From: Dokdonia sp. Dokd-P16
Lineage (GTDB): Bacteria; Bacteroidota; Bacteroidia; Flavobacteriales; Flavobacteriaceae
Direction: 5' to 3'
DNA: 64,000 bases
Assembly: GCF_003095655.1 (NCBI RefSeq)
Contig: NZ_CP029151.1
Span: 2,727,001-2,791,000, forward strand
The position numbers were made by a program, and so were the translations under genes. The notes under the pieces are model-generated. The model was not told where the DNA came from, did not search any database, and was given only the letters and a program-made list of their open reading frames with translations. This document shows, one piece after another, positions 3,171 to 60,466 of this stretch; positions within the stretch are counted from its first letter, which is position 1; the number at the start of each line of letters is the position of its first letter.

Positions 3171-3873
3171 GCGTAATTTTCGCTAGATATTCATAATGAT
3201 CACCTTCTAAAATGAGCTCACAATTGAGCTCATTTTTTTGTGCATACCATGCAAGTCTTTCATAGTCTAGATAAAGCCAGTCAAAGCTAGAGCTCTGCTC
3301 GCCTTTATAGCTCATCGAGTACGTGACCTCTCCATAGTAGTCACGATGTGTATCCATCCAGAAGCCTCCATCTTCGTCTTCAAACATAAATGCAATATCT
3401 GATCCATCTATAAGTATCTGACCATCTTTATTAAGCAGTGTTTTAAGGTGCTTTAGGTAATCGTCTATTTTTGATATACGCTCAAAAATTCCTGTGCCAT
3501 TCATGAGTAATAAAAGTGTGTCGTAGGTGTCTTTATGTTCTAGAATATTAGAGTGTACAGCTTTTTTTAAACCACGCTTTCGCGAAAGCGTAACAGCTCC
3601 CTCACTAATATCTATTCCAGTAACATCAAGTCCTTGCTCTTGTAACCACAAACTATGACTACCCGCGCCACTACCAATGTCGAGTATAGTTCCCTTAGAA
3701 AGTGATAATGCTCGTTGCTCTATCACTGGCATTTCTTCAAAAGGCCTGAATAAATATGGAATAGGGATTACATCATCTTCTGCAATAGAGGAGTGTACCA
3801 CGATGTCTTCTGTGTACTTGTTTTCAATAAAATCTTGGAGCGCTGCTCCAAAAATATCTACCTCTTTTGCCAT
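3163..3873 (-). CDS. Class I SAM-dependent methyltransferase
   Basis: This 236-aa protein has the SAM-binding motif I LDIGSGAGSHSLWL, followed by LDVTGIDISEGAV, where the acidic residue binds the ribose, and later LLLLMNGTGIF (motif IV region). It is a Rossmann-fold methyltransferase of the MT11/MT25 type. Substrate cannot be told from sequence. One exact copy of the 16-bp dispersed palindrome (3575-3590) lies within it, read as LSRKR between the motif II strand and the following helix, so the palindrome contributes normal residues rather than an obvious insertion. Its start is 23 bp from the divergent YkgJ-type gene, and its 3' end overlaps the DUF2059 gene. Confidence 0.85.
   Translation of the reverse strand: MAKEVDIFGAALQDFIENKYTEDIVVHSSIAEDDVIPIPYLFRPFEEMPVIEQRALSLSKGTILDIGSGAGSHSLWLQEQGLDVTGIDISEGAVTLSRKRGLKKAVHSNILEHKDTYDTLLLLMNGTGIFERISKIDDYLKHLKTLLNKDGQILIDGSDIAFMFEDEDGGFWMDTHRDYYGEVTYSMSYKGEQSSSFDWLYLDYERLAWYAQKNELNCELILEGDHYEYLAKITLT
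3575..3590. repeat. Dispersed palindrome, exact 16-mer
   Basis: CGCTTTCGCGAAAGCG inside the methyltransferase gene, in the LSRK reading frame. Flanks A...T extend the symmetry to 18 bp. Confidence 0.95.
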
Positions 3874-3884
3874 AGCTTTATGAT

Positions 3885-3892
3885 TACCTTTG
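3885..3892 (+). promoter_or_regulatory. Candidate -7 box TACCTTTG, leaderless arrangement
   Basis: TACCTTTG matches the Bacteroidota -7 consensus TANNTTTG and ends only 4 bp before the ATG at 3897. The transcript would start at or next to the initiation codon. A TTG lies about 15 bp upstream, shorter than the usual 19-bp spacing. Confidence 0.4.
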
Positions 3893-3896
3893 CGTC

Positions 3897-4391
3897 ATGG
3901 AAGATTTTATTAAAGCCCTCCCTCAGCTGGCCAAAGATAAGCAGAATGAGAATAAAAAGTTCTTTGCAAAACTGCGCAGTAAACCTCCAAAAAACTTGGA
4001 CTACATCATGCAAGAACTGCATGAAGATGAGTTTGAAAGAACAGATTGTCTTACGTGTGCAAACTGTTGTAAGACAACGGGACCGCTCTTTACAGATAAG
4101 GATATCCAGCGTATCTCAAAACACTTCCGCATGAAGGAATTTGACTTTATTAAAACGTATTTACGTATTGATGAAGAGAAGGATTACGTACTACAAGAAA
4201 CACCATGCACTTTTCTAGGAGCAGATAACTACTGCTCTATCTATGATGTGAGACCTAAGGCTTGTAGAGAGTTCCCACATACGGATAGAAAGAAATTTCA
4301 GCAAATTTCTAAGCTTACTATGGAAAACGTAAAGATGTGTCCAGCTGCTTTTAATATCGTAGAGGAGATGAAAAAGAGAATCAAAGTATAG
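3897..4391 (+). CDS. YkgJ-family cysteine-cluster protein
   Basis: This 164-aa protein has the CxxCxxCC cluster CLTCANCC at about residues 42-49, followed by PCTFLGADNYCSIYDVRPKACREFPH. That is the conserved zinc/iron-chelating pattern of the YkgJ (CxxCxxCC) family, with Cys residues before and after the YxxRPxxCR segment. The family probably binds a metal; its biochemical role is not established. A Bacteroidota -7 box ends 4 bp before the ATG, suggesting a leaderless or nearly leaderless transcript. It is divergent from the methyltransferase and convergent with crcB. Confidence 0.85.
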   Translation: MEDFIKALPQLAKDKQNENKKFFAKLRSKPPKNLDYIMQELHEDEFERTDCLTCANCCKTTGPLFTDKDIQRISKHFRMKEFDFIKTYLRIDEEKDYVLQETPCTFLGADNYCSIYDVRPKACREFPHTDRKKFQQISKLTMENVKMCPAAFNIVEEMKKRIKV

Positions 4392-4423
4392 TTGATATAC
4401 TTAAAAGTCAAAAGCTGGATATT

Positions 4424-4795
4424 TTAAAAACTCTTTCCTAACTCAATTCCTCCAAACACTGCAAGAATACCAAGTGTAAAACTTGCAATGGTATACAATG
4501 CAAAAGTCATAAAATCTCCAGATTTTAGAAGCACGTGATTTTCATATGCAAAGGTAGAAAAGGTGGTAAAACCTCCGCAAAAACCTGTTGCTAGTAATAA
4601 TGTAGTGTTACTATTAAGTGTGTTGTTTTTGAGAGCCCATCCTAAGATAATACCTATCAACAAGCTACCTATAATGTTTGCCGCAAAAGTGCCATAGGGT
4701 ATACCAGAACTAGGGTCATTTATAAACTTCCCTAGAAGGTATCTTGCAATACTTCCAGTACCACCACCTATAAAAACGAGTATAAGAGTTTTCAA
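4424..4795 (-). CDS. crcB: Fluoride exporter CrcB/FluC
   Basis: This 123-aa protein has four hydrophobic segments and the family signatures GGGTGSIARYLLG, TFAANIIGSLLIG (the pore Asn) and TGFCGGFTTFSTFAYE (the Phe-box and Na-binding TTFSTF). It is the usual length for a Fluc subunit, which works as an antiparallel dual-topology dimer exporting fluoride. It starts 6 bp after the preceding SRPBCC gene and is probably co-transcribed with it. I saw no fluoride riboswitch; none would be expected directly in front given the 6-bp gap. Confidence 0.92.
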   Translation of the reverse strand: MKTLILVFIGGGTGSIARYLLGKFINDPSSGIPYGTFAANIIGSLLIGIILGWALKNNTLNSNTTLLLATGFCGGFTTFSTFAYENHVLLKSGDFMTFALYTIASFTLGILAVFGGIELGKSF

Positions 4796-4801
4796 GGGAG
4801 C

Positions 4802-5833: not shown

Positions 5834-5921
5834 TGGTGATGGTTTGGTTTTGCAGTAAAGATAACAAAATTCATCGTGTGGAATTTTGCTATATTTACGT
5901 GCACAAATTATTAAATAACTT

Positions 5922-7946
5922 ATGAGTCACAAAGGAATATACGCGCTAGCAATTGCAGCGATTCTCGCAGTAGGATGTGGAGAAGATAATAAGGATGATA
6001 ACGCTTTCGCGAAAGCGGAAACAACAACTACAGATTTTGATTATACAGTTGGCCAGTTTGCCGATATTAAGATATTACGTTATCAAATTCCAGGTTTTGA
6101 AGACTTAACACTTAAGGAGCAAAAGCTGGTGTATTACATGACACAAGCAGGACTTGCAGGACGTGATATCATGTGGGCACAGAATTACCGTCACAATCTT
6201 GAGATAAGAAATGCACTAGAGACGATTTATACGTCTGACAAGGTTGCAAAAACAGGAGTAGAGTGGGAGCAGTTTGAAACATTCATGAAGCGTGTATGGT
6301 TTGCAAATGGTATACACCACCATTACAGTAACGCTAAGATGAAGCCAGATTTTTCTCAAGATTACTTAAAACAACTACTTACCGAAAGCGGAGCAACACT
6401 AGAGGGAGAAGCTTTTGAAGTACTCTTTAATGATAAGGACAGTAAGAAAGTAAACCTAGCCAAAGATGTTGATATCGTACTTGAAAGCGCGATTAACTTT
6501 TATGGTCCAGACGTAACGACAGCAGAGGCAGAAGCATTTTATGATGCTATTAAAGTAGATGAGAATGAGCCTATTGAAAAAGGACTCAACACACGCCTTG
6601 TAAAAGAAAACGGTAAACTTGTAGAACAAGTTTACAAGAGTGGAGGATTATATGGCGAGGCTATAGATAATATAATCGGTTGGTTAGAAAAAGCACAAAC
6701 CGTTGCCGAAAATGAGCAGCAAGGAAAAGCTTTAGGACTGCTTATTGAATATTACAAGACGGGAAGCCTTGATACTTGGGATGATTACTGTATCGCATGG
6801 GCAACCTCTACAGAAGGAAATATAGATTGGATAAACGGTTTTATAGAAGTTTATAATGACCCTAAAGGTTATAAAGGATCTTATGAGACTGTAGTTCAAA
6901 TTAAAGATTTTGACATGTCAAAAAAGATGGCAGCACTATCTGTAGATGCACAATGGTTTGAAGATAACTCGCCATTAATGCCTGAGCATAAGAAGAAGGA
7001 AGTAAAAGGAGTTTCTTATAAAACAGTGATTGTAGCGGGAGAGGCTGGAGATGCTTCACCATCTACACCTATTGGTGTAAACTTGCCTAACAATAACTGG
7101 ATACGCCAAACGCATGGAAGTAAATCAGTCTCTCTAGGTAACATAATCAATGCTTATAATAACGCTGGTGGATCTGGACGTCTTAAAGAGTTTGCACATG
7201 ATGCAGAGGAAGTCGAGCTAGAAGAAGCATATGGACAATTAGGAGATAAGCTTCACACTGCTTTGCACGAAGTAGTAGGTCATGCATCTGGACAGATTAA
7301 TAAAGGAGTGGGAACACCTAAGGAAACTCTTAAACGTTATAAGTCTACGATAGAAGAAGGTCGCGCAGATCTTTTTGGACTATATTACCTTATGGATCCA
7401 AAACTTCAAGAAATAGGACTGGTAGAAGACTGGGAAAAAACTGGAATGGCTGCTTACGATGGTTACATTCGTAACGGATTGATGACGCAACTTATTCGTC
7501 TTGAACTAGGAGATAATGTAGAAGAAGCACACATGGTAAATCGCCAGTGGGTGAGCGCATGGGCTTTTGAGCGTGGTGCAAAAGAAAATGTGATTGAAAA
7601 AGTAACTCGTGATGGTAAGACCTACTTTAACATCACAGATTACACGAAGCTTCGTACAATCTTTGGAGAATTACTAAGAGAGACACAGCGCATTACTTCA
7701 GAAGGAGATTATGAAGCTGCAAAAGCACTTGTAGAAAATTATGGGGTGATTGTAGATCAAGATATCCATAAGGAAGTGCTGGCTCGTAATAGCCAATTCA
7801 AAAGCGCACCTTACAGTGGTTTTGTAAATCCTGTAATCGTTCCGCAAATGGAAGGTGAGGAGATTACTGGCTTTACTATTGAGCAACCAGAAAGCTTCGA
7901 AAATCAAATGCTTGATTATTCTAGCAAATACGGTCATTTAGATTAA
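5922..7946 (+). CDS. Dipeptidyl-peptidase III (M49) lipoprotein
   Basis: This 674-aa protein begins with a lipoprotein signal (LAIAAILAVGC), so the enzyme is exported, unlike cytosolic eukaryotic DPP III. The M49 zinc motif HEVVGH is at residues 449-454 and the second motif EEGRADLFGLYY at about 478. Together they supply the two His and one Glu zinc ligands and the catalytic Glu450. DPP III removes N-terminal dipeptides from short peptides. An exact copy of the 16-bp palindrome encodes AFAKA just after the lipid anchor, in a low-complexity linker (DDNAFAKAETTTT), where it should be harmless. Another copy lies 12 bp past the stop. The transcript ends at a strong terminator. Confidence 0.92.
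   Translation: MSHKGIYALAIAAILAVGCGEDNKDDNAFAKAETTTTDFDYTVGQFADIKILRYQIPGFEDLTLKEQKLVYYMTQAGLAGRDIMWAQNYRHNLEIRNALETIYTSDKVAKTGVEWEQFETFMKRVWFANGIHHHYSNAKMKPDFSQDYLKQLLTESGATLEGEAFEVLFNDKDSKKVNLAKDVDIVLESAINFYGPDVTTAEAEAFYDAIKVDENEPIEKGLNTRLVKENGKLVEQVYKSGGLYGEAIDNIIGWLEKAQTVAENEQQGKALGLLIEYYKTGSLDTWDDYCIAWATSTEGNIDWINGFIEVYNDPKGYKGSYETVVQIKDFDMSKKMAALSVDAQWFEDNSPLMPEHKKKEVKGVSYKTVIVAGEAGDASPSTPIGVNLPNNNWIRQTHGSKSVSLGNIINAYNNAGGSGRLKEFAHDAEEVELEEAYGQLGDKLHTALHEVVGHASGQINKGVGTPKETLKRYKSTIEEGRADLFGLYYLMDPKLQEIGLVEDWEKTGMAAYDGYIRNGLMTQLIRLELGDNVEEAHMVNRQWVSAWAFERGAKENVIEKVTRDGKTYFNITDYTKLRTIFGELLRETQRITSEGDYEAAKALVENYGVIVDQDIHKEVLARNSQFKSAPYSGFVNPVIVPQMEGEEITGFTIEQPESFENQMLDYSSKYGHLD
6002..6017. 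repeat. Dispersed palindrome, exact 16-mer
   Basis: CGCTTTCGCGAAAGCG in the DPP III gene, read as AFAKA in the linker behind the lipobox. Context AACG...CGGA is shared with the copies at 11151, 27030 and 46079. Confidence 0.95.
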
Positions 7947-7958
7947 GTATAACAAGTA

Positions 7959-7974
7959 CGCTTTCGCGAAAGCG
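7959..7974. repeat. Dispersed palindrome, exact 16-mer
   Basis: Intergenic copy 12 bp after the DPP III stop codon, flanked TA...TA so that the symmetry extends beyond 16 bp. Confidence 0.95.
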
Positions 7975-10340: not shown

Positions 10341-10428
10341 CATCCTCAATTATGAGCTAGAATTATAGCTCTTACAATAGCAAAGTGAAGCTATAATTAG
10401 CCGATGTTTTGCAAACATATATCAGATA

Positions 10429-11622
10429 ATGAAAACGGTAGTAGTAGGTCTTAGTGGTGGAGTAGATAGTAGTGTTACGGCTCACTTATTAAAGGAACAA
10501 GGATACAACGTGATAGGTCTTTTTATGAAGAACTGGCACGATGATTCTGTAACGATATCTGATGAGTGCCCGTGGCTAGATGATAGCAATGATGCAATGC
10601 TCGTTGCCGAAAAGTTAGGAATTCCTTTTCAGACTGTAGATTTAAGCGAGCAATACAGAGAGCGTATTGTAAATTACATGTTTAAAGAATATGAGATGGG
10701 ACGAACTCCTAATCCAGATGTGCTGTGTAATCGTGAGATTAAGTTTGATGTGTTTATGAAAATTGCACTATCTCTCGGAGCAGATTATGTAGCGACAGGA
10801 CATTACTGTCAAAAGACTTCGATTGAAGTAGACGGTAAGACAATGTATCAGCTTAAAGCCGGAGCAGACGATAATAAAGATCAATCATATTTTTTATGCC
10901 AGCTATCGCAAGAGCAATTGGCAAAGACATTATTTCCTATAGGGCATTTACAAAAGCCTAAGGTGCGCGAGATTGCCTTAGAGCAAGATCTCGTAACGGC
11001 AGGTAAGAAAGATTCTCAAGGACTTTGTTTTATAGGTAAAGTACGATTACCAGACTTTTTACAACAACAATTAAAACCTAAGGAAGGTGTGATTGTTGAG
11101 GTGATGGAAGATACTATTCCTGAAGTTGCAGGAGGTATGGAGGCTAGTAACGCTTTCGCGAAAGCGGACTTAGAAAACCTTGTAAAAAAGCCAACATATA
11201 GCGTTGCCGAAGGAAAGGTGGTAGGAAAGCACCAAGGAGCACATTACTTTACAATTGGTCAGCGTAAGGGACTCGCAGTAGGCGGAACCGTAGAGCCACT
11301 TTTTGTAATAGATACAGATGTAAATGAAAATGTGATTTACACAGGTCAAGGAAAAAATCACAGAGGATTATACCGAAAAGGACTCTTTGTAAAAGAAGAA
11401 GAAATACACTGGATACGTGAGGATCTCACGCTTGCAGTAGACGAAACTATGGAAGTTGAAGCAAGAATACGCTATAGACAACCACTAGAAAAGGCGACAC
11501 TTTATAGAGTGGAAGGTGGCATGTATGTAATTTTTGACAATCCTCAAACCGCAATTGCCGAAGGTCAGTTTGTAGCATGGCATCATGGAGAAGAGTGCTT
11601 AGGTTCTGGAGTTATTTCGTAA
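10429..11622 (+). CDS. mnmA: tRNA-specific 2-thiouridylase MnmA
   Basis: This 397-aa enzyme carries the PP-loop [10 protein letters not shown] for ATP binding, the catalytic Cys in [12 protein letters not shown] and the second Cys in [12 protein letters not shown]. It also has [10 protein letters not shown] in the tRNA-binding domain. It thiolates U34 of tRNAs for Lys, Glu and Gln. Between residues of about 212 and 258 it has the longer central insert typical of Bacteroidota MnmA. In this strain an exact palindrome copy is embedded there and read as [11 protein letters not shown]. The insertion point is outside the catalytic motifs, so activity should be retained. Confidence 0.95.
11151..11166. 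repeat. Dispersed palindrome, exact 16-mer
   Basis: Copy within mnmA, read as AFAKA in the variable central insert. Confidence 0.95.
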
Positions 11623-14968: not shown

Positions 14969-16084
14969 TTATTCCCTACGCTCTTTTTCTTGTTTGTAGA
15001 TCTCACGGCCTAGTTGCGCGAGAAAAGGGATACCTATATTTTCATACTCATAGGTATCATCATTAAAAATTGCATTCTCATTTACTAGGATAGTTGCAGA
15101 GAGTATAAAGCGTATGTCATTCTCGGTGTCAACAATGTATGCAGTCTCTGTGAGCGTTCCATATGCATATCCCACTTTATTGTAAATTTTGATATTACTA
15201 GGTATATCATCTTTGGAGTCTCCATACATGAAAAACTTAACATAACTATCGTAATACTTTTGGGAAGTATACTTAGCCTCGCGAGGTAATGCTTTCATTG
15301 ACGATAGTAAACGAGTTCTACTTTCTTCGGTGAGGTCAAATCGTTCTGCTTCGGGAAAGACTTCTGGTGCTATAAGCTTTTTGATTAGTAGATGTTGCTC
15401 TTCTAGTGGGAAGTAGTTTTTCTCGCTAAAGTTCATTGGAGATTCTTTTAAAACACCATCTTCTATGTATCCTTTACCTTTGTTAATTCCTTGTATAGTA
15501 ACTGGAGTAATATCGCTATCTGTTTGATTTTTTAATTCAATTACGTCTTCCGTATATCCTGGAAAGAATTGAATGTTGTTCCTGCTAGCTTTATCAGCAT
15601 CTGGCGTAGATAATCTATGGGCGATACGGGTGTTGTTTAGTCCTTTTTCGCGCAAGCGGTTATTAATATAATCTCTTCCTAAAATCTCATAAATTCTGTT
15701 GTAGGATGCATTGTCACTTACTGCAAAAATCTGTCTAATGTCATCAGACACTGTATGTAAATTGTCGTCATCACCTATAATATATGGGGTATCAAGATGT
15801 AGGTTCTCACGTACATCCATAAACTCTGCAGCTAGCAGTGCTACAGGGAGTTTTACCGTGCTCGCAGGGTAAAAATACTGGTCTGTATTTACGTTGTACT
15901 CGTAATCTGTAAATACCATCTCACCAGTACTTGACGTATCGATTTGTGTGAACAGTATTTGTACTTCGTGTTTTTTAATATCGCTTACAACGGTTTTTAT
16001 AAGCTCATTTTTTGAGCTTAATGCTGTCTCGATAGGATTGCTGCAACTTGCAAATATTACTACTATTAATACCCAATATTTCAT
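14969..16084 (-). CDS. Class A beta-lactamase-like serine hydrolase, lipoprotein
   Basis: I place the start at ATG 16084 (371 aa) rather than the in-frame ATG at 16108. MKYWVLIVVIFASCS is then a clean lipoprotein signal, and the lysA terminator reaches up to base 16109. The active-site motif SxxK is S75-T-V-K78 (PASTVKLP) and the second motif is SDN (FAVSDNASYN). The KTG box is replaced by KVG (NKVGYAYG), a substitution at a residue that helps bind the beta-lactam carboxylate. It belongs to the beta-lactamase2 (PF13354) group. Whether it hydrolyses beta-lactams, cleaves another amide or ester, or acts on cell wall is not settled. Confidence 0.82.
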   Translation of the reverse strand: MKYWVLIVVIFASCSNPIETALSSKNELIKTVVSDIKKHEVQILFTQIDTSSTGEMVFTDYEYNVNTDQYFYPASTVKLPVALLAAEFMDVRENLHLDTPYIIGDDDNLHTVSDDIRQIFAVSDNASYNRIYEILGRDYINNRLREKGLNNTRIAHRLSTPDADKASRNNIQFFPGYTEDVIELKNQTDSDITPVTIQGINKGKGYIEDGVLKESPMNFSEKNYFPLEEQHLLIKKLIAPEVFPEAERFDLTEESRTRLLSSMKALPREAKYTSQKYYDSYVKFFMYGDSKDDIPSNIKIYNKVGYAYGTLTETAYIVDTENDIRFILSATILVNENAIFNDDTYEYENIGIPFLAQLGREIYKQEKERRE

Positions 16085-16155: not shown

Positions 16156-17361
16156 TTATTCTTTGAGAATAACTTGGTTGCTTATGAGGTCTTCAAAGGT
16201 TTCTCGTTTACGTATTAAATGCGCTTCGCCGTTTTTGATCAACACCTCTGCAGGTCTGTAGCGACTATTATAATTGCTCGCCATCGTAAAGCAATACGCA
16301 CCTGCATTATCAAAGGCAAGAATATCACCTTCAGAAATTTCTGAGATGCGACGGTTGTTTGCAAAAGTATCGGTCTCACAAATATATCCCACAACACTAT
16401 AAAAACGTTCTCGCCCTTTTGGGTTGCTTATATTATGTATCTCATGCTGGCTTCCATAAAGCATAGGTCGTATTAAGTGGTTAAATCCACTATCTACTTG
16501 AGCAAATACTGTTGAGGTTGTTTGTTTTACCACATTTACTTGTACAAGAAATTTACCTGCTTCGCTTACAAGGAATTTACCAGGTTCAAAGGTTAGCGTG
16601 AGTGGTTTTCCGTACGCTTTCGCGAAAGCGTTAAAACGTTTCCCTAATTTCTCTCCTAGTTCCTCTATGTTAGTCTCAATGTCTCCTGCTTTATAAGGTA
16701 CTTTAAAACCGCTACCAAAATCAATAAAAGTAAGATCGCTGAATTTTTGTGCAGCATCAAATAATATTTCTGTCGCATAAACAAATACATCAATATCAAG
16801 AATGTCACTTCCAGTGTGCATGTGAATTCCATTGATATTCATTCCGGTATTTTCCACAATGCGCAGTACATGCGGTAGCTGGTGAATACTAATCCCAAAT
16901 TTACTATCGATGTGCCCTACAGAAATGTTAGTGTTTCCACCTGCCATTACGTGAGGATTCACGCGGATACACACAGGTATTTGAGGATGCTTAGTCCCAA
17001 ACTGTTCTAATATAGAAAGATTGTCTATATTGATTTGAACACCCATTTGTGCTACCTCCTCTATCTCTGCAAGTGAGACACCATTAGGTGTAAAGATGAT
17101 GCGATCTGGAGTAAAGCCAGCTAGAAGTCCTAGCTGTACTTCTTGAATAGAAACCGTGTCTAGTCCAGAACCCAAGCTCTTTAGATGCTGTAATATAGAA
17201 ATGTTGCTTAAAGCTTTTACGGCGTAGTTAAGTCTTAACTGTTTTACATCCTTAAATGCATTAGTAAGTCTATTATATTGTGTCGTAATAGTCTCTGCAT
17301 CGTATACATAAACTGGACTTCCGTGGGTGTTGACCACGTTTAAAAGATCTCTATTTTTCAT
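16156..17361 (-). CDS. lysA: Diaminopimelate decarboxylase
   Basis: This 401-aa PLP enzyme decarboxylates meso-diaminopimelate to L-lysine. It has the PLP lysine in YAVKALSN (Lys49), HMHTGSDI, the phosphate-binding FIDFGSGFKVPY, EPGKFLVSEAG and the catalytic Cys in YICETDTF. Length fits the family. An exact palindrome copy is read as AFAKA in KRFNAFAKAYGKPL. Related enzymes have a helix of similar length and character here, so the copy appears to occupy normal sequence without an insertion. The gene has its own terminator and a candidate -7 box 17-24 bp before the start. Confidence 0.95.
   Translation of the reverse strand: MKNRDLLNVVNTHGSPVYVYDAETITTQYNRLTNAFKDVKQLRLNYAVKALSNISILQHLKSLGSGLDTVSIQEVQLGLLAGFTPDRIIFTPNGVSLAEIEEVAQMGVQINIDNLSILEQFGTKHPQIPVCIRVNPHVMAGGNTNISVGHIDSKFGISIHQLPHVLRIVENTGMNINGIHMHTGSDILDIDVFVYATEILFDAAQKFSDLTFIDFGSGFKVPYKAGDIETNIEELGEKLGKRFNAFAKAYGKPLTLTFEPGKFLVSEAGKFLVQVNVVKQTTSTVFAQVDSGFNHLIRPMLYGSQHEIHNISNPKGRERFYSVVGYICETDTFANNRRISEISEGDILAFDNAGAYCFTMASNYNSRYRPAEVLIKNGEAHLIRKRETFEDLISNQVILKE
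16615..16630. repeat. Dispersed palindrome, exact 16-mer
   Basis: Copy within lysA, read on the coding (minus) strand as AFAKA just before the conserved EPGKFLVSEAG segment. Flanks TA...TT. Confidence 0.95.
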
Positions 17362-19472: not shown

Positions 19473-19486
19473 CGCTTTCGCGAAAA
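19473..19486. repeat. Dispersed palindrome, partial copy
   Basis: CGCTTTCGCGAAAA: left arm and core intact, right arm degraded. Lies between the M57 terminator and the pirin stop. Confidence 0.8.
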
Positions 19487-19496
19487 TGTGACAGCA

Positions 19497-20786: not shown

Positions 20787-20802
20787 TGCTTTCGCGAAAG
20801 CG
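20787..20802. repeat. Dispersed palindrome, 15 of 16 bases
   Basis: TGCTTTCGCGAAAGCG, first base changed; 65 bp before the TPR protein start, in the probable leader. Confidence 0.9.
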
Positions 20803-20867: not shown

Positions 20868-23800
20868 ATGCATAAAATCAAGTACGTACTTGTTGCATTA
20901 TTTTTATATTCAACTATTGCTGTAGCGCAACAATCGGCAATATATACGAATGATCTTGTACAATTCAATAAGGCACTTTCCTTATATAATAGCAAGCAAT
21001 ACCTAGCAGCGCAAACTCTTTTTGAAGAAGTAAAAGGAGATACAGATGATACAACTGTAAAAGGTGATTGTGCGTATTACATTGCAAACGCGGCAGTGCG
21101 ACTCAATCAGCAAGGGGCAGATGACCTCATGACTACTTTTGTAACAGAGTATCCTACGAGTACAAAACGCAACAGTGCTTTTCTTGATGTGGCACAATAT
21201 TATTTTGATAATGGCAAGTTTGCTTATGCTCGTAAATGGTATGATCGCGTAGATGAAAGCACCCTTACAGCAGGAGAAAAGGAGACTTTTTACTTTAATA
21301 ATGGCTATGCTTACTTTAAAAGTAATCGTTTTGACGAGGCGAAGAAATATTTAAACCGCGTACGTGATTCAAAAAAATATGGAGCGCAGGCTAAATATTA
21401 CATTGGCTTCATGGCTTATGAGGGTGATGATTATGAGGAAGCAAAAGAGCTTTTTGAAGAAGTAGAAGCAGAGACAGGAGGAGCATATAATGAGGATCTT
21501 GCATACTTTAAAGCAGACCTTAATTTTAAGTTAGGGAAATTTGACGAAGCAATTTCAGAAGGGAAGTCTCAGCTAGCAAAAGCAAACCCAACAGAAAAGT
21601 CTGAGCTTAATAAAATTATAGGAGAAAGCTATTTTAACCAAAAGAAGTATGCAGAGGCATTACCATATTTACAAGCCTACAAAGGAAAGCGTGGTAAGTG
21701 GAATAACACAGATTATTATCAGCTAGGATATACTTATTATAAGCAAGGAGATTATGCAAATGCTATCAATGAATTTAATAAAATTATTGATGGAGATAAT
21801 AGTGTAGCACAAAATGGATATTACCACCTAGCAGAATCTTACCTAAAATTAGATAAAAAGCAAGAAGCGCTCAATGCATTTAAAAATGCAAGTGAAATGG
21901 ACTTTAATGCACAAATCAAAGAAGATAGTGGTCTTAATTATGCAAAGCTGAGCTATGAAATAGGTAATGCTTACAAGTCTACACCTGCTGTAATTACAGA
22001 TTATATAGATGCCTATCCAAAATCTCCAGCTAAGACAGAACTAGAAGCATTACTTATAGATTCTTACATCACCTCAAAAAATTACAAAGAGGCAATGCGC
22101 TTGCTAGAAAGCAACAGCAATTTTGATAATAAGGTAGCTTATCAAAAAGTAGCATTTCTTTATGGGCTTGATCTTTATAATGAAGGTAATTATCCAGAGG
22201 CTGCTGCAGCATTTAAAAAATCTCTTAAAGAACCACGCGATCCTTTATATGTGACACGTGCGACCTACTGGAAAGCAGAGAGTGATTATGTTGCAAATGA
22301 TTTTAAAGAAGCAATTATAGGGTACAAGCAGTTTTTAAATAACAGTAATGCTGCAAGTACTCCAGAATATCAAGACATCAATTATAACCTTGCATATGCA
22401 TATTTTTCTGATAAGCAGTATGAACAAGCAGCGACCGTTTTTGAGTCGTATGCTGCAAGTAATGTGCAAGATCAAACTAAACTTAATGATGCGTATTTAC
22501 GTCTAGGTGATAGCCGTTTTATAAGCAGTAAATACTGGCCTGCGCTTGAAGCGTATAATAAGTCTATAGCGCTTAACAAGACAGATCAAGACTATGCAAC
22601 TTTTCAAAAATCGATGAGTTATGGTTTTATAAAAAAGGATGAAGACAAAATAAGCGGACTTCAAACTTTTTCGACTAAGTTTCCAAACTCTACCTATCGC
22701 GATGATGCGCTTTATGAATTAGGTAACATTTATGTATCTCAAAATAAAAATGATCAAGCAATTACTGCTTATGACAAATTAGTAAGAGATTTACCTGGTA
22801 GCTCTTATGTGTCAAAAGCAATGCTTAAAAAAGCGTTGATACTTGATAATAAAAACAAGTCTGACGAGGCACTCGCACTTTTGCGCAAGGTAGCTGGTGA
22901 TTATCCAGGGACTCCAGAGGCATTGCAAGCAGTGACTACGGCAAAGCTTATTTATATAGATCTAGGTCGTGTAGATGAGTATGGACAATGGGTGAGTACA
23001 TTAGATTTTATCGATGTGGAGGATGCAGAGCTTGATGATGCTGCATATGCATCGGCAGAGAAGCAGTATGTGGAGAATAATGTAGGTCAAGCAGAACGAC
23101 TTTTTGAGTCATACTTGAATGACTATCCTAATGGACAGCATGCATTACAGGCTCATTTTTATTTAGGGCAGCTCGCTTTCGCGAAAGCGGAATACAAAAA
23201 AACAATTCCGCATTACCAATTTGTTATAACAAAGGAGCGTAGCGAATTTACAGAGCAAGCTCTTGCACGTTTAGGGCAAGTATATCTTACAGATAAAAAC
23301 TACACGGCTGCAATTCCGGTGTTAAAACGACTAGAAACAGAAGCAGACTTCCCACAGAATATTGTTTTTGCTCAGTCTAACCTGATGAAATCTTTTTATG
23401 AAGGTGAAGACTTGACAAAAGCAGTGAGCTATGCCGAAAAAGTGCTTGGAAATGCAAAAATTGACAATGCAGTAAAAAGTGATGCGCAAATAATAATTGC
23501 TCGCTCTTCTATAAAAACAGGTGATAAAGCAAGAGCTAAAACGGCGTATGCTGAGGTTCAGAAAATTGCTACAGGAGCACTAGCAGCAGAGGCTTTATAT
23601 TATGATGCTTATTTTAAAAATGAGGCTCAAAACTTTGAAGCATCTAATGTCGCAGTGCAAAAACTAGCTAAAGACTACAGCGGTTTTAAAGAGTATGGAG
23701 CCAAAGGACTTGTGCTTATGGCAAAGAATTTTTATGCACTAGGAGATGCATATCAAGCAACATACATTTTAGAAAGTGTGATTACAAACTTTGCAGATTA

Positions 23801-23888
23801 TCCAGAAACTGTAGAAAAAGCACGTGGCGAACTAGCAATTATTAAACAAGCAGAAGGAAAAACAAATGCCTCTGTAGAAAAAGGGTAA
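20868..23888 (+). CDS. Large exported tetratricopeptide-repeat protein
   Basis: This 1006-aa protein has a cleavable signal peptide (MHKIKYVLVALFLYSTIAVAQ). Almost the entire mature chain consists of TPR-type helix pairs, with recurrent A-x(3)-Y-x(3)-(G/N) patterns such as YFKSNRFDEAKKYLNR, YYKQGDYANAINEFNK, AYFSDKQYEQAATVFE and FYLGQLAFAKAEYKKTIPHY. It is likely a periplasmic scaffold. An exact palindrome copy supplies AFAKA inside one TPR helix at about residue 770, fitting the repeat register. The following genes encode a beta-barrel and a small lipoprotein in the same direction. I do not recognise it as a named T9SS component. Confidence 0.85.
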   Translation: MHKIKYVLVALFLYSTIAVAQQSAIYTNDLVQFNKALSLYNSKQYLAAQTLFEEVKGDTDDTTVKGDCAYYIANAAVRLNQQGADDLMTTFVTEYPTSTKRNSAFLDVAQYYFDNGKFAYARKWYDRVDESTLTAGEKETFYFNNGYAYFKSNRFDEAKKYLNRVRDSKKYGAQAKYYIGFMAYEGDDYEEAKELFEEVEAETGGAYNEDLAYFKADLNFKLGKFDEAISEGKSQLAKANPTEKSELNKIIGESYFNQKKYAEALPYLQAYKGKRGKWNNTDYYQLGYTYYKQGDYANAINEFNKIIDGDNSVAQNGYYHLAESYLKLDKKQEALNAFKNASEMDFNAQIKEDSGLNYAKLSYEIGNAYKSTPAVITDYIDAYPKSPAKTELEALLIDSYITSKNYKEAMRLLESNSNFDNKVAYQKVAFLYGLDLYNEGNYPEAAAAFKKSLKEPRDPLYVTRATYWKAESDYVANDFKEAIIGYKQFLNNSNAASTPEYQDINYNLAYAYFSDKQYEQAATVFESYAASNVQDQTKLNDAYLRLGDSRFISSKYWPALEAYNKSIALNKTDQDYATFQKSMSYGFIKKDEDKISGLQTFSTKFPNSTYRDDALYELGNIYVSQNKNDQAITAYDKLVRDLPGSSYVSKAMLKKALILDNKNKSDEALALLRKVAGDYPGTPEALQAVTTAKLIYIDLGRVDEYGQWVSTLDFIDVEDAELDDAAYASAEKQYVENNVGQAERLFESYLNDYPNGQHALQAHFYLGQLAFAKAEYKKTIPHYQFVITKERSEFTEQALARLGQVYLTDKNYTAAIPVLKRLETEADFPQNIVFAQSNLMKSFYEGEDLTKAVSYAEKVLGNAKIDNAVKSDAQIIIARSSIKTGDKARAKTAYAEVQKIATGALAAEALYYDAYFKNEAQNFEASNVAVQKLAKDYSGFKEYGAKGLVLMAKNFYALGDAYQATYILESVITNFADYPETVEKARGELAIIKQAEGKTNASVEKG
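23174..23189. repeat. Dispersed palindrome, exact 16-mer
   Basis: Copy inside the TPR gene, read as AFAKA in the A helix of a repeat (GQLAFAKAEYKKT). Confidence 0.95.
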
Positions 23889-30944: not shown

Positions 30945-30960
30945 CGCTTTCGCGAAAGCA
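30945..30960. repeat. Dispersed palindrome, 15 of 16 bases
   Basis: CGCTTTCGCGAAAGCA in the 5' leader of the phosphatase gene, 26 bp before its ATG. Confidence 0.9.
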
Positions 30961-43150: not shown

Positions 43151-43166
43151 CGCTTTCGCGAAAGCG
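43151..43166. repeat. Dispersed palindrome, exact 16-mer
   Basis: Intergenic copy between YigZ and the oligopeptide-binding gene, 19 bp before the proposed YigZ start and 8 bp after the binding-protein stop. Flanks TA...TA. Confidence 0.95.
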
Positions 43167-44863: not shown

Positions 44864-46273
44864 TTATTTCTCCCACTCTGTGTGGAAGATTCCCTCGCGG
44901 TCTAATCTCTCATAAGTATGGGATCCAAAATAATCTCGTTGTGCTTGTATAAGATTAAGTGGTAATCTCGTTGAAGTATAAGCGTCAAAATAGGTTAACG
45001 AGTTTGATACTCCAGGAAGCGGGATACCATTAATAGCTCCGTAAGCGACAAGCTCTCTAGCCGAGTCTACCGTGCTTTGTATTTTTTTGATAAATGACGG
45101 GGATAATAAAAGGTTAGGTAATTCTGTATCCTCTGTAAAAGCATCTGTGATATCTGCGAGTAGCTTTGCTCTAATGATACATCCTGCTCTCCATATTTTT
45201 GCAATTACTGCAATATCGAGGTCATAACCATATTCCTTAGAGGCATCTGCTAGCTGATGCAAACCTTGAGCATAAGTAATAATGTAAGAGAAGTAAAGCG
45301 CCTCTTCTGTAAGCTTTGTTAGCTTTTCTTTATCCATTGTTGCCACTTTTGGGCGATCGTATAGAGAATCTGCAATGGTACGCTCATCTTTAAGTGCAGA
45401 GATTTCTCTCATACTCACAGCGATATCGATAGAAGGTACGGGAATACCTAGATCCATCGCGTTTTGTGAGGTCCATTTTCCTGTTCCTTTTTGTTTTGCT
45501 TTATCGAGAATCTGATCTACAAGGTCATCACTAGTAAGGGTATCCTTTTCGGCAAAAATCTCTGATGTAATCTCTACTAAGAAGGACTGTAAACGTCCTT
45601 CATTCCATGATTTATAAGTCTCGTGTAGCTCTTGATTAGATAAGTTTCCAGCTTTTTTAAGCACGTCATATATCTCAGAGGTAAGTTGCATGAGTCCGTA
45701 CTCAATACCATTGTGCACCATTTTTACATAGTTTCCAGCAGATTTAGGTCCTAAGTAAGCAACACAAGGTTCTCCATTATATTTGGCAGATACTGCTTCA
45801 AAAATGGGTTGTACCGCAGCATATCCAGGTTTGGATCCTCCAGGCATGATACTTGGTCCTATACGTGCGCCTTTGGCTCCTCCAGAAACTCCTGCTCCAA
45901 AAAAGTGAATTCCTTTTTCAGATAAGTACGCTTCTCTTCGGTCGGTATCGGTAAAGAAAGAGTTTCCTCCGTCTATGATGATGTCTCCTTTATCTAAGTG
46001 TGGCAGTAAACTTTCTATGACAATGTCCACTACTTTGCCAGCGGGAACTAGTAACATGATTTTACGTGGGGATGATAACGCTTTCGCGAAAGCGGATACA
46101 TCAACCGTAGCATCTACGCGTTTTGGGTCACCGCCTTCTTCTATAAGTGCCTGCACTTTTTCTGGGTCAAGGTCATTGCCCATTGCGCTAAAGCCATTAT
46201 CGGCTACATTTAATATAAAATTGCGTCCCATTACGCCCAGTCCAACTAAGCCAAAATCGTAAGAATTTTTCAT
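44864..46273 (-). CDS. gnd: 6-phosphogluconate dehydrogenase, decarboxylating
   Basis: I place the start at ATG 46273 (469 aa, the standard length) rather than the upstream in-frame ATG 46306. The NADP-binding motif GLVGLGVMGRNF, the substrate motif IIDGGNSFFTDT, FFGAGVSGGAKGAR and KMVHNGIEYG (catalytic Lys) are all present. It makes ribulose-5-phosphate and NADPH. An exact palindrome copy encodes VSAFAKALSSPRK in the helix preceding the PRKIMLLVPAG strand; other Gnd enzymes have an equally long helix here, so nothing appears inserted. It faces zwf-pgl across a 176-bp region. Confidence 0.95.
   Translation of the reverse strand: MKNSYDFGLVGLGVMGRNFILNVADNGFSAMGNDLDPEKVQALIEEGGDPKRVDATVDVSAFAKALSSPRKIMLLVPAGKVVDIVIESLLPHLDKGDIIIDGGNSFFTDTDRREAYLSEKGIHFFGAGVSGGAKGARIGPSIMPGGSKPGYAAVQPIFEAVSAKYNGEPCVAYLGPKSAGNYVKMVHNGIEYGLMQLTSEIYDVLKKAGNLSNQELHETYKSWNEGRLQSFLVEITSEIFAEKDTLTSDDLVDQILDKAKQKGTGKWTSQNAMDLGIPVPSIDIAVSMREISALKDERTIADSLYDRPKVATMDKEKLTKLTEEALYFSYIITYAQGLHQLADASKEYGYDLDIAVIAKIWRAGCIIRAKLLADITDAFTEDTELPNLLLSPSFIKKIQSTVDSARELVAYGAINGIPLPGVSNSLTYFDAYTSTRLPLNLIQAQRDYFGSHTYERLDREGIFHTEWEK
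46079..46094. repeat. Dispersed palindrome, exact 16-mer
   Basis: Copy in gnd, AFAKA frame on the coding (minus) strand. Confidence 0.95.
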
Positions 46274-46394
46274 AAGTAAAGTTTCATTCCCCACAAAAGA
46301 GCTCAAAAAAGCAACTCAAAATTATCAGTGGGTATTGCTCATCAAAAATAGTGGAAAAATAATTGTTTTTGTGAGTAAGTGGTGGGGAAGTCGG

Positions 46395-49825: not shown

Positions 49826-49840
49826 ACGCTTTTGCGAAGG
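49826..49840. repeat. Degenerate copy of the dispersed palindrome
   Basis: CGCTTTTGCGAAGGC, two mismatches to the consensus; 60 bp before the ABC-F gene. Probably a decayed copy. Confidence 0.5.
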
Positions 49841-49874
49841 CATACTAATCTTCACACAGCACCACTTAATATAG

Positions 49875-53386: not shown

Positions 53387-53893
53387 TTAATTAAACTGCT
53401 TCCCATCATTTACTTCCACCCAATATCCATCTGGATCTTGGAAGTAGAGTTGGCGCACTTTATCTGGACGTGTTGAAATTTGGTTAGCACTTCCTGGCCA
53501 GTCATAGTAGTTGAGATTTCTTTTTTCTATGCTTTCGCGAAAGCGGTCAAAATCACCTACAGCAAGCGCAATATGAACTCCTTTAGGTATTTTCTTATCA
53601 AGGCTATCTACTTGAATGATATGCAATTCTTGCGATAATCCTAGTCCAAACCATCTTATATGCGGCTGCTCTGTACCATCTTTAATTTCCTTCAAACCGA
53701 AAACCTCTTGATAAAAAGCGACACTTTGATCTAAATCTGTAACGTTAATCGCATAATGATCTATCGCAACTTGAAATCCTGACGCTGAGTCTGAATTAGT
53801 GGTTTCTGTGCTTGTTTTTTCTGCACACGAGAAAAAGCATAACGCAGTAACTACAATAGCTACTGCGTTTGTAAATAATTTATTAGTCATCAT
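53387..53893 (-). CDS. Exported VOC-superfamily lipoprotein
   Basis: This 168-aa protein has a lipoprotein signal (VTALCFFSC), then a single glyoxalase/bleomycin-resistance (VOC) domain: IDHYAINVTDLDQSVAFYQEVFGL, then KGVHIALAV and LYFQDPDGYWVEVND. The conserved metal ligands His (DHYAIN), His (GVHIAL) and Glu (WVEV) are visible. Export of a VOC protein is unusual. A 15-of-16 palindrome copy is read as RFRES in GDFDRFRESIEKRN. The start overlaps the stop of the upstream peptidase by one base, so the two are coupled. Confidence 0.85.
   Translation of the reverse strand: MMTNKLFTNAVAIVVTALCFFSCAEKTSTETTNSDSASGFQVAIDHYAINVTDLDQSVAFYQEVFGLKEIKDGTEQPHIRWFGLGLSQELHIIQVDSLDKKIPKGVHIALAVGDFDRFRESIEKRNLNYYDWPGSANQISTRPDKVRQLYFQDPDGYWVEVNDGKQFN
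53531..53545. repeat. Dispersed palindrome, 15 of 16 bases
   Basis: GCTTTCGCGAAAGCG in the VOC gene, read as RFRES on the minus strand, the third possible frame. Confidence 0.9.
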
Positions 53894-55798: not shown

Positions 55799-55812
55799 CG
55801 CTTTCGCGAAAG
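55799..55812. repeat. Dispersed palindrome, partial copy
   Basis: CGCTTTCGCGAAAG, last two bases lost; in the gap before the small membrane protein gene. Confidence 0.85.
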
Positions 55813-55883
55813 AATAATGAAAGAAGGTTACGGCAACATGCCAGTATTATTTGTAATTATGTGTAAGCTTTTTAAGGAAGCCA

Positions 55884-56440: not shown

Positions 56441-56456
56441 CGCTTTCGCGAAAGCG
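56441..56456. repeat. Dispersed palindrome, exact 16-mer
   Basis: Copy 4 bp beyond the stop codon of the SDR remnant, in an otherwise gene-free stretch. Confidence 0.95.
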
Positions 56457-56460
56457 AAAA

Positions 56461-57924: not shown

Positions 57925-57989
57925 AGTTGTTGCATAAGAAAGCCCAAAGATACTAATCGCATCTTTGAGCCCTGTGATAATGAGTTCCA

Positions 57990-58005
57990 CGCTTTCGCGA
58001 AAGCG
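57990..58005. repeat. Dispersed palindrome, exact 16-mer
   Basis: Copy between the photolyase and SDR genes, 65 bp before the photolyase ATG. Confidence 0.95.
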
Positions 58006-58034
58006 CACCATCCATAATTGTTAAATGTAGGGGT

Positions 58035-58733: not shown

Positions 58734-58761
58734 AATGTTATTTGTTATTGTGGTGATGCAG

Positions 58762-59271: not shown

Positions 59272-59531
59272 AGTCGCTTTATTGAGAGTTTAAAAATACA
59301 ATCAAAATGTTTAATAACAAGTGACTAAAGGTTAAACAAAAATTAAAATAAAGTTGTATTGAGTTATGGGAATCTGTCTTGAGAATAGCTTAAGGAAAGA
59401 GCAGATTAAGTAAATGTATATAGAGTAAGCGCAGACAATCGGTAATGTTTACAGAAAGAAACAGCATCAAGCCATTTAAGAGAATGCGCTGATATTAAGA
59501 TTTTGTTAACATTTGCCCTTTAAGAACGCCT

Positions 59532-59539
59532 TATTTTTG
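59532..59539 (+). promoter_or_regulatory. Candidate -7 box TATTTTTG of the DUF2911 gene
   Basis: Matches TANNTTTG; TTTG at 59513 lies only 15 bp upstream. The predicted transcript would carry the palindrome copy in its leader. Confidence 0.4.
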
Positions 59540-59548
59540 TGAAAGATA

Positions 59549-59562
59549 TTTTCGCGAAAGCG
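59549..59562. repeat. Dispersed palindrome, partial copy
   Basis: TTTTCGCGAAAGCG: core and right arm intact, left arm degraded; 32 bp before the DUF2911 start. Confidence 0.8.
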
Positions 59563-59594
59563 TAAAAATCACCTTAACTAAAAAAACAACAACA

Positions 59595-60440
59595 ATGAAA
59601 AAATTACTTTTTGTAGCCTTCTTGGGGCTCATGACAGCGGGCGTTAATGCGCAAATTGACACACCAGCACCAAGCCCAGCGGCTAAAGTGATGCAAGTAG
59701 TAGGTCTTACAGATGTGACATTAGAATACTCACGTCCAGCAATGAAAGGACGTACTATTATGGGCGATCTTGTGCCTTATGGAGCAATGTGGCGTACAGG
59801 AGCAAATGCAAATACTACGGTAAGTTTTTCTACTCCAGTAACAGTAGGAGGGAAGGAACTTAAAGCAGGTTCTTATGCAGTATACACAAAGCCTATGCAA
59901 GATGCGTGGGAAGTATATTTTTATACAGATACTAGCAACTGGGGAACTCCAGCAACTTGGGATGATAGTAAAGTAGCAGCGACTGTTACAGCAAAAGTAC
60001 AGACTACAAATATGGCAGCAGAGTCATTTACTATGGGAATCAACCATATTAATAATGATGGTGCACACTTAACTATGCAGTGGGATAAAACGTATGTTGC
60101 AGTACCTTTTAACGTACCAGCAAACGAGACTGTAATGGCGCAAATTGATAAGATTATGGCTGGACCAGCAATGGGCGATTATTATGCAGCAGCAGTATAT
60201 CTTTCTAGCACTGGGCAATCTCTAGAAAAAGCAAACACCTACATGGAGAAAGCAATGGCGATGAACAAAGAACCTAAGTTCTGGCAATTACGCCAGCAGT
60301 CTTTATTACTTGCAAAAGTAGGCAACAAGAAAGGCGCTATCAAAGCTGCACAAGCATCTCTAGAAGGAGCAAAGGAGGCAAATAATCAAGATTACATTAA
60401 GATGAACATGGACTCTCTAAAAGAATGGGGAGCAATGTAA
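59595..60440 (+). CDS. DUF2911 exported protein
   Basis: This 281-aa protein has a signal peptide (MKKLLFVAFLGLMTAGVNAQ). The DUF2911 domain spans about 25-170, with the signature VTLEYSRPAMKGRTIMGDLVPYGAMWRTGANANT followed by LKAGSYAVYTKP and WEVYFYTDTSNWGTP. The C-terminal 90 residues form helices resembling TPRs. The family is widespread in Bacteroidota without known function. Palindrome copies stand on both sides of the gene, in its leader and 12 bp after the stop. Confidence 0.9.
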   Translation: MKKLLFVAFLGLMTAGVNAQIDTPAPSPAAKVMQVVGLTDVTLEYSRPAMKGRTIMGDLVPYGAMWRTGANANTTVSFSTPVTVGGKELKAGSYAVYTKPMQDAWEVYFYTDTSNWGTPATWDDSKVAATVTAKVQTTNMAAESFTMGINHINNDGAHLTMQWDKTYVAVPFNVPANETVMAQIDKIMAGPAMGDYYAAAVYLSSTGQSLEKANTYMEKAMAMNKEPKFWQLRQQSLLLAKVGNKKGAIKAAQASLEGAKEANNQDYIKMNMDSLKEWGAM

Positions 60441-60452
60441 GTGATAATTTTT

Positions 60453-60466
60453 CGCTTTCGCGAAAA
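60453..60466. repeat. Dispersed palindrome, partial copy
   Basis: CGCTTTCGCGAAAA 12 bp after the DUF2911 stop, directly before the terminator; right arm degraded. Confidence 0.8.

Follow-up and report, generated by a model that had tools for sequence, protein, structure and literature searches.

A dispersed, evenly spaced palindrome with G-poor flanks in Dokdonia sp. Dokd-P16, a possible DNA-uptake signal or chromosome-organising site

The window, i.e. the whole stretch of 64,000 nucleotides of the Dokdonia sp. Dokd-P16 chromosome that was analysed, was searched for a 16-bp palindrome with up to three mismatches, and the matches were compared with ORF positions; window coordinates are used and strand is given as '.' for every site. 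22 matches were observed, 12 of them exact and 10 carrying one (three sites), two (two sites) or three (five sites) mismatches. Exact sites were located in ORF 3163-3873(-) (3575..3590), the M49 peptidase ORF 5922-7946(+) (6002..6017), the tRNA methyltransferase-family (MnmA-like) ORF 10429-11622(+) (11151..11166, reading AFAKA in a variable linker), the decarboxylase-family ORF 16156-17361(-) (16615..16630), the TPR-protein ORF 20868-23888(+) (23174..23189), the amidohydrolase ORF 26920-28551(+) (27030..27045), ORF 34140-38678(+) (34604..34619), the 6-phosphogluconate dehydrogenase ORF 44864-46306(-) (46079..46094) and the N-terminal end of the photolyase ORF 56614-58011(-) (57990..58005), and three more are intergenic (7959..7974, 43151..43166 and 56441..56456). 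Sites with one mismatch lie upstream of ORF 20868-23888(+) (20787..20802), at 30945..30960 and in ORF 53387-53893(-) (53530..53545). One-armed sites with two mismatches were found between convergent ORFs (19473..19488) and in intergenic DNA (55799..55814), and those with three mismatches in ORF 34140-38678(+) (38443..38458), upstream of ORF 59595-60440(+) (59547..59562) and directly after the same ORF (60453..60468). The two remaining sites, with three mismatches each, are a weak one at 15643..15658 and a decayed, intergenic one with a broken core at 49827..49842. All 12 exact positions of the original prediction were confirmed. Its one-mismatch sites at 20787 and 30945 and its partial sites at 19473, 38443, 55799 and 60453 were also recovered, the sites given as 53531, 59549 and 49826 start at 53530, 59547 and 49827, respectively, and the site at 15643 was absent from its list.

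Dinucleotide shuffles of the window (n = 100) contained a mean of 0.06 matches and never more than one, and Markov models of orders 1-3 predict 3.3e-6 to 4.8e-6 exact copies of the 16-mer in it. Genome-wide (3.62 Mb), 556 exact copies were counted, or one per 6.5 kb, versus none of a reversed control. In the 2.06 Mb of chromosome that were read, 312 exact copies compare with expectations of 1.0e-4 to 1.6e-4 (orders 1-3), 0.0014 (order 4) and 0.30 (order 5), and the runner-up 16-bp palindrome reached 8 copies. These counts, far above expectation, exclude both outcomes that had been named as fatal to the prediction, a number near the Markov expectation and a single local expansion. The predicted density of about one copy per 3 kb is right for the 10-bp core, present 618 times in the 2.06 Mb or about 1100 times by extrapolation to the genome; exact copies are sparser. 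Copies are isolated and not of the REP type, as had been described. A dispersed 16-bp palindrome is confirmed as real and genome-wide, and hundreds of near-identical, evenly spaced and strongly kept copies look like the address label of a DNA-recognising system.

The genome encodes a rhodopsin 98% identical to KR2, in keeping with Dokdonia. The exact palindrome was found 138-711 times in the 17 other genomes of the genus that were searched. Two further genera, that of G027, G305 and G457 and that of G254, were motif-rich, and the remaining samples of the family and phylum held 0-13 copies, with 3, 0 and 8 in three genomes of Leeuwenhoekiella, apparently the sister genus. This contrast is abrupt, so that the protein concerned should be findable by gene-content comparison. 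In other named genera, sampled at 21-227 kb per genus, no comparable palindromes were seen at the threshold used. Closer relatives retain the sites in place despite sequence divergence: where flanks differ by about 20%, sites were unchanged in 18 of 18 (overlapping) comparisons, versus 5 of 170 controls, and above 22% in 0 of 10 alignable ones. Tailed-phage contigs, one with an integrase gene, also carry the palindrome, at least two phage lineages having several sites each, and two cultured Nonlabens phages have none. Since the reversed control hit 14 IMG/VR contigs with one copy each, motif matches on IMG/VR contigs above 50% GC are probably due to chance.

The surroundings of the palindrome were then characterized. 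Of 613 fully flanked cores, 310 had both GCG arms, 256 had one and 47 none. TA was present on both sides in 83 of 312 exact copies, bearing out the T or A extensions noted originally. On the outward strand, G is depleted over about 18 bases to either side, making up 0.08 of positions 12-25 (counted from the centre) versus 0.17 of positions 41-60; this was alike for coding and intergenic sites, and values of 0.06-0.10 were obtained in six of seven other genomes (0.17 in the seventh, G254). Half-sites are not enriched, because matches with four mismatches numbered 96 versus 80 for shuffled palindromes. When the 25 arm positions were compared with permuted partners, excess matching was confined to positions 9 (z 2.4) and 24 (z 2.7); the other 23 had none at a z of at least 2, five matched less (z -2.0 or below), and no stem kept by compensatory change was detected. 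Because the arms scarcely covary, the palindrome is read as duplex and not as a hairpin. On the best reading, the palindrome and about 18 bp of G-poor DNA per side, some 50 bp in total, would constitute one duplex recognition site, and we infer that its reader is a dimeric protein. Even spacing, G-poor flanks, independent arms and phage copies had all been absent from the original prediction.

The flanks also bear on a Chi-type site for recombination or self-marking, at which a helicase-nuclease or its road-block would halt and self DNA would be protected. The GT-rich DNA 5' of the site on both strands, complement of the A/C-rich outward strand, would suit RecA loading, Chi density is of the same order as that of the palindrome, and phages carry the sequence. 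However, the Chi sites known so far act as single-strand signals and are short and asymmetric, whereas the element described here is a palindrome devoid of half-site excess and missing from the two cultured phages, making this explanation improbable.

In 124 of 142 one-mismatch copies the deviation affected the outermost base. One-base deviants of the cyanobacterial palindrome HIP1 (GCGATCGC) likewise cluster at the outermost bases, according to the part of Elhai's account considered here (PMC4390886), and both elements are highly iterated and patchy among relatives. A methyltransferase-linked palindrome of this kind, with TTTCGCGAAA as the candidate modified sequence, should have a cognate enzyme. 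However, among 15 motif-rich genomes PF00145 (C5) was absent from 9, PF01555 (N6/N4, matches over the cut-off) from 13 and PF02086 (Dam-type) from 6, and the Dokd-P16 genome lacked matches to all three. The palindrome differs from HIP1 also in its length of 16 bp and in that flanks matter, which a methylase would leave unexplained. The methylation target proposed originally is weakened by the lack of a common enzyme of these three classes, and an equivalent of HIP1 is very unlikely.

With a home-made ORF caller, 332 cores were assigned to 0.40 Mb of intergenic DNA and 286 to 1.65 Mb of coding DNA, in agreement with the intergenic enrichment first reported. AT-rich 5-kb bins were poorer, with 0.38 cores per bin at GC 0.31-0.34 (16 bins) and 1.00 below 0.31 (5 bins) versus 1.56-1.79 at GC 0.36-0.40. 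Gaps of 60-600 bp contained 1.97 sites per kb between convergent, 1.29 between divergent and 1.35 between tandem genes, sites in the latter leaning toward the upstream stop; no promoter preference was seen. An RNA or DNA hairpin, either a bidirectional terminator or a REP-like self-spreading palindrome, would fit the dyad, the intergenic excess, the richness of convergent gaps, the lean toward stops and the slight excess matching at arm positions 9 and 24. It is at odds with the other 23 arm positions, five of them matching below expectation, with the frequency of one-armed sites, with the 286 of 618 sites inside predicted genes and with the lack of any T-run found after sites. REP/BIME elements are likewise dispersed palindromes in intergenic excess, served by RAYT transposases, whereas here no stem covaries, nearly half of the sites are genic and no RAYT is common, the Y1 (REP/RAYT) transposase being absent from Dokd-P16 itself and from 11 of the 15 motif-rich genomes examined. 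Self-spreading, another of the roles first suggested, is weakened by this absence and by the conserved places among closer relatives; the hairpin reading is largely contradicted already and hardly credible.

Spacing was compared with random placement preserving the coding/intergenic split. The coefficient of variation (CV) of gaps was 0.617 versus 1.028 ± 0.038 in 3000 simulations (minimum 0.921), and 59 gaps under 1 kb were observed versus 177.5 ± 9.5 simulated. Very even spacing is shared by this genus with both other motif-rich genera, eight of nine other genomes being more even than 95% of simulations. Lists of exact copies provided weaker evidence: the CV was 0.683 in G016 (313 of 20000 simulations as low) and not significant in G006 (0.893), G011 (1.043) and the first 100 exact copies of the Dokd-P16 genome (0.922), and gaps under 1 kb numbered 1, 1, 1 and 0, respectively, versus 6.3, 4.4, 5.7 and 12.5 expected.

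Such regularity, together with a perfect dyad of largely independent arms and indifference to promoters, points to the main rival of the reading preferred below, in which a nucleoid-associated dimeric protein would bind every 2-4 kb chromosome-wide and bridge or loop the DNA; we regard this as possible but doubtful. Since that chromosome is their habitat, temperate phages would acquire the site too, and its presence on tailed-phage contigs (including one that encodes an integrase), its absence from the two cultured Nonlabens phages and the kept places among closer relatives are in line with this. In its full form, a regular whole-chromosome lattice of palindromic 50-bp sites, independent of transcription and replication, organising the nucleoid and joined by temperate phages, the proposal is rather unlikely. 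The sites of parS, Noc, SlmA and MatP are 12-16 bp palindromes bound by dimers, as is putatively the case here, and those of Noc, SlmA and MatP show an ori/ter trend. By contrast, the present palindrome has 556 exact copies instead of tens and no common ParB paralogue, and its density, judged by eye with chromosome ends inferred from cumulative GC skew, was flat, with neither an ori/ter trend nor the terminus-depleted or terminus-restricted pattern of nucleoid-occlusion and MatP sites. Also against a chromosome-organising role, strand-asymmetric flanks are left unexplained, two stretches (18.5 and 19.6 kb) made up mostly of giant genes are free of sites, Leeuwenhoekiella manages without the palindrome, and we know of no precedent for a whole-chromosome lattice of such a kind. 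Should the role be real, a chromosome lattice would be at hand with its protein reachable by one probe.

Candidates for the reader were sought among ParB proteins. Of 13 motif-rich genomes, 12 had one ParB_N match and G010 had two, and a Noc/ParB paralogue, not being common to them, was rejected. A switch in ParB specificity was not clearly apparent in the aligned recognition region, where one lysine is replaced by N or S in all eight motif-rich proteins shown, N occurring in the motif-free G024 as well. A sample covering 57% of the genome showed no parS-like site with up to two mismatches.

Of the four roles suggested originally, the chromosome-organising site and the DNA-uptake signal both remain. 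We tentatively prefer a duplex site of one symmetric (dimeric) host protein, most like a DNA-uptake signal, while granting this somewhat less than an even chance. A single symmetric host DNA-binding protein would read the ~50-bp duplex, and kin DNA carrying the site would be preferentially bound and taken up, the site acting as a self-DNA signal like the USS of Pasteurellaceae and the DUS of Neisseriaceae. One site every few kb would suffice and extra ones nearby would add nothing, which is the proposed reason for the even spacing. Like USS and DUS, the palindrome has hundreds of host-genome copies with a strict core, a weaker periphery and contributing flanks, is clade-limited and is in intergenic excess. 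In the portions of the literature drawn upon, uptake sequences are in excess in non-coding DNA (PMC1939737), combine a strict inner core with a flanking contribution and arise by point mutation (PMC7811141). Even spacing is reported there for USS (Karlin et al., as cited in PMC1939737), whereas PMC7811141 calls the USS distribution uneven, which counts against the parallel. USS and DUS are described, again in the portion used of PMC1939737, as not palindromic, in contrast to the perfect dyad of 16 bp with two symmetric G-poor flanks found here; a palindromic uptake signal would be new. The present case differs further in belonging to another phylum and in being found on tailed-phage contigs, and its uptake role is putative.

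Several points weigh against an uptake signal. A dimeric protein acting inside the cell would more typically be expected behind a perfect dyad, and to our knowledge competence has not been reported in this genus. Several sites per phage lineage are not required by uptake, and the lack of unchanged sites above 22% flank divergence was also noted as contrary to it. On the supporting side, the Haemophilus phage HP1c1 carries uptake sites. Also in favour, in Riemerella columbina, of the same family, own DNA is preferred in transformation by a signal described as unknown in the part of PMC7965970 consulted. An uptake role would bear on self-preference in this family and would provide, as far as known, the first palindromic uptake signal and the first in Bacteroidota. 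Under either the uptake or the organising reading, G-poor flanks, the spacing rule and phage copies impose sharp, testable constraints.

A crude filter for DprA-like motifs had no match in 57% of the genome. An equally crude filter for ComEC (length, transmembrane segments and motif) retained eight long membrane proteins from the same share, of which seven match other NCBIfam families and the eighth matches none in NCBIfam or Pfam; neither DprA nor ComEC thus had a clear candidate in this share, a point against uptake. An autoregulated binder beside clustered sites was rejected, nine of ten neighbour proteins scanned being ordinary and one a DUF6567 protein. The ordinary neighbours were gcvH, EF-P, YicC, SAICAR synthetase, topoisomerase IB, a MoxR-type AAA protein, a hydrolase and others.

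The 16-bp palindrome CGCTTTCGCGAAAGCG was found in the window as 12 exact copies plus 10 carrying one to three mismatches, against a mean of 0.06 in 100 shuffles. In the genome of Dokdonia sp. Dokd-P16 (one contig, 3,623,447 bases) it has 556 exact copies, while the reversed control is absent. In a sample of 98 blocks covering 57% of this genome (2,057,682 bp), 312 exact copies were counted where Markov models of order 1–3 predicted 1.0e-4 to 1.6e-4, and the runner-up 16-bp palindrome had 8 copies. Two 16-bp palindromes, CCCGATAGCTATCGGG and CCCTCTTCGAAGAGGG, reach this number in the sample and are possibly ordinary terminators. No description of the motif was found in titles and abstract openings of open-licence papers, among them 10 whose text includes the core string.

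Exact copies (138–711) were present in all 17 other Dokdonia genomes searched. A family sample returned at least one match in 48 of 397 genomes: Dokd-P16 itself, G011 of the same genus, three genomes of genus g11 (448, 495 and 579 exact copies), one of genus g219 (153) and 42 with only 1–13 copies each. Matches in a phylum sample were limited to 11 of 395 genomes, namely Dokd-P16 and ten with one or two copies, and among 33 genomes with public titles to Leeuwenhoekiella polynyae (3) and L. palythoae (8), L. aestuarii having 0 copies. A tree of MnmA, read without support values, grouped Dokdonia with Leeuwenhoekiella, g219 and g11. Copies in low-copy genomes were often clustered, with spacings of 933, 2446 or 2479 bp recurring across different genera (G029, G142, G151, G165, G208, G372 and both matching Leeuwenhoekiella species). 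Because these clusters repeat identical spacings in different genera, they suggest a mobile island that may have moved horizontally from a motif-rich donor. The copies of G208 lie at the same places as in L. polynyae, and a copy of G029 (L002) falls inside an efflux-type gene whose product has AcrB-like and outer-membrane-efflux domains. The sodium-pump rhodopsin KR2 derives from Dokdonia (Krokinobacter) eikasta. The rhodopsin of Dokd-P16 is identical to KR2 (PDB 7q36; also 4xtl) at 274 of 279 aligned residues.

The Dokd-P16 sample also contained 142, 100 and 92 copies with one, two and three mismatches, respectively; at four mismatches the excess almost vanished (96 versus 80 for shuffled palindromes). 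The changed base was the outermost one in 124 of the 142 one-mismatch copies. The inner 10 bp, TTTCGCGAAA, occurred 618 times and, among 613 cores with full flanks, 310 had both outer GCG arms, 256 had one and 47 had none. TA was favoured immediately outside the 16 bp, and over the next ~18 bases on each side the outward-running strand was poor in G, at coding and intergenic sites alike. Its G content was 0.08 at positions 12–25 from the centre and 0.17 at positions 41–60, arms without any G amounting to 35% and 7%, respectively. G-poor flanks (0.06–0.10) were also observed in genomes G004, G011, G013, G016, G017 and G305. In G254, the g219 genome, flank G was 0.17, the bias being nearly gone, and only 6 of 30 cores were exact versus 45 of 50 in G016, G305 and G011 combined; strictness therefore differs between species. 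Across loci L309–L316 of G254 cores were retained while arm strictness and flank bias were largely lost, as if the site system were decaying or had changed.

A structural role of the palindrome as terminator, REP stem or cruciform is disfavoured, given that the arms scarcely covary and do not fold better than swapped arms. When the two arms of 586 sites were compared at 25 positions against permuted partners, they matched above the permuted level at positions 9 (z 2.4) and 24 (z 2.7) only, and below it at positions 6, 7, 10, 12 and 15 (z −3.4, −2.5, −2.0, −3.8 and −2.4), all others being inside z 2. It is as if, at the under-matching positions, a good arm compensated for a poor partner. RNA folding energy showed no gain for real over swapped arms (−13.2 versus −13.7 kcal/mol). 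Both comparisons speak against a hairpin and fit additive binding, in which the motif would be read as duplex by a dimeric protein. None of the families tested as readers (ParB, methyltransferases, Y1/RAYT) explains the motif. Of 13 motif-rich genomes, 12 had a single ParB match and G010 had two. Among 15 motif-rich genomes, PF00145 was absent from 9, PF01555 (over cut-off) from 13, PF02086 from 6 and Y1/RAYT, the REP transposase, from 11; Dokd-P16 lacks all three PF families. The 57% sample of Dokd-P16 contained no parS-like site with up to two mismatches, yet parB is present.

Conservation was assessed in alignments anchored with the site included, few sites being alignable at depth. Between G016 and G003 (4.6% flank divergence), all 19 alignable exact sites were unchanged, whereas random 16-bp blocks were so in 71 of 149 cases. 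Going from these two genomes to the window and G008 (19–20% divergence) the figures were 18 of 18, pooled from four comparisons that share sites and hence are not independent, versus 5 of 170 controls. Window sites were unchanged in G016 (4/5), G003 (4/5), G008 (11/12) and G006 (7/8). In the distant members G004, G010, G013 and G011 (22–28%), none of 10 alignable sites was unchanged and three retained the core; in the G004 comparisons, site difference was 0.50–0.56 versus 0.26–0.29 for control blocks. Sites are therefore kept among closer relatives, up to ~20% divergence, and undergo turnover at the depth of the genus. For the site in MnmA, motif-less genus members (L158, L159) share the linker length, so that the motif difference there arose by substitution; the linker is longer in L161 and L162.

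With a home-made ORF caller, which covered 80% of the sample and missed short genes, 332 cores were assigned to intergenic DNA (0.40 Mb in total) and 286 to coding sequence (1.65 Mb), in-gene sites using the AFAKA frame in 153 of 280 cases. In gaps of 60–600 bp, sites were densest between convergent genes (1.97 per kb), with 1.35 for tandem and 1.29 for divergent pairs; within tandem gaps they lay nearer the upstream stop codon (34, 23, 18, 22 and 11 in successive fifths). Because of the intergenic excess, the convergent-gap excess and the bias to the upstream stop, sites seem to be located where they would disturb least. Density per 5 kb was 1.56–1.79 in bins of GC 0.36–0.40, 0.38 at GC 0.31–0.34 (16 bins) and 1.00 below 0.31 (5 bins). 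Eighteen stretches longer than 7.5 kb lacked even a relaxed site: three consisted largely of giant genes, with frames of 5511, 5968 and 3211 aa, six were AT-rich (GC 0.303–0.343), two had masked runs and seven were ordinary. The siteless frames of 5511 and 5968 aa correspond to L225 and L244, their lengths being those within the blocks read.

Core-to-core gaps had a CV of 0.617, versus 0.958 ± 0.037 under uniform placement (minimum 0.840, 2000 runs) and 1.028 ± 0.038 when the coding/intergenic split was kept (minimum 0.921, 3000 runs); with the latter, 177.5 ± 9.5 gaps below 1 kb were expected and 59 observed. Per-block counts were under-dispersed (variance/mean 0.556 versus 0.985 ± 0.141, with no simulation of 2000 reaching so low a value). 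Spacing evidence was less clear for exact copies only. Gap CV was 0.36–0.67 in nine other genomes, at most 3.9% of 3000 simulations being as even in eight of them; G010, with 10 cores, was not significant (19.8%). No origin-to-terminus trend in density was seen by eye, the ends being taken from cumulative GC skew. The sequence data show a duplex site of about 50 bp that is maintained and regularly distributed, favours no promoters and follows no replication pattern that could be seen.

We tentatively consider, with somewhat less than even confidence, that the motif is an uptake signal, which would cover the strictness of the core, the grading of the arms, the flanks, the regular spacing, the excess in intergenic DNA and the scarcity of sites in AT-rich DNA. 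PMC1939737 and PMC7811141 on uptake sequences offer parallels to its features, the latter however terming USS distribution uneven, and PMC7965970 concerns a relative with self-preference. HIP1, the iterated cyanobacterial palindrome, was compared with the motif as described in PMC4390886.

IMG/VR contained 41 stretches with the exact motif, versus 14 contigs with one copy each for the reversed control. Two groups of motif-bearing contigs are clear tailed phages: one includes L037, with portal, major head and tape-measure genes, and a relative (L336 and L015) with terminase and integrase; the other includes L027 (terminase, portal, protease, tail sheath) and L044 (baseplate hub), and a contig of 37,380 bases in this group has 6 exact copies, approximately the exact density of the host. 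Sites in contigs below 50% GC had G-poor flanks like those of the host, outward G being 0.105 versus 0.201 in those contigs (92 arms). Ten of 11 contigs found through protein alone were also among those bearing the motif, several being near-identical to the query; L330 and L331, 74% identical, have 2 and 3 cores, and the sole core-less one, L332, is 34% identical. Among contigs selected for carrying the motif, aligned site pairs were unchanged in 28 of 33 cases (flank divergence 0.12) versus 124 of 412 control blocks (0.17). The Nonlabens phages P12024S and P12024L (35,000 of 35,652 bases) showed no core, and their host may not be motif-rich. A chromosome-organising site would account for the phage copies and the dyad symmetry better than an uptake signal does, but leaves the strand-asymmetric flanks unaccounted for; we hold it only slightly less likely than the uptake reading, and know of no precedent for chromosome-wide organising sites at such scale. 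In L015 (9147–10361), a phage core site at 10352 starts 9 bases past the end (10343) of the integrase gene.
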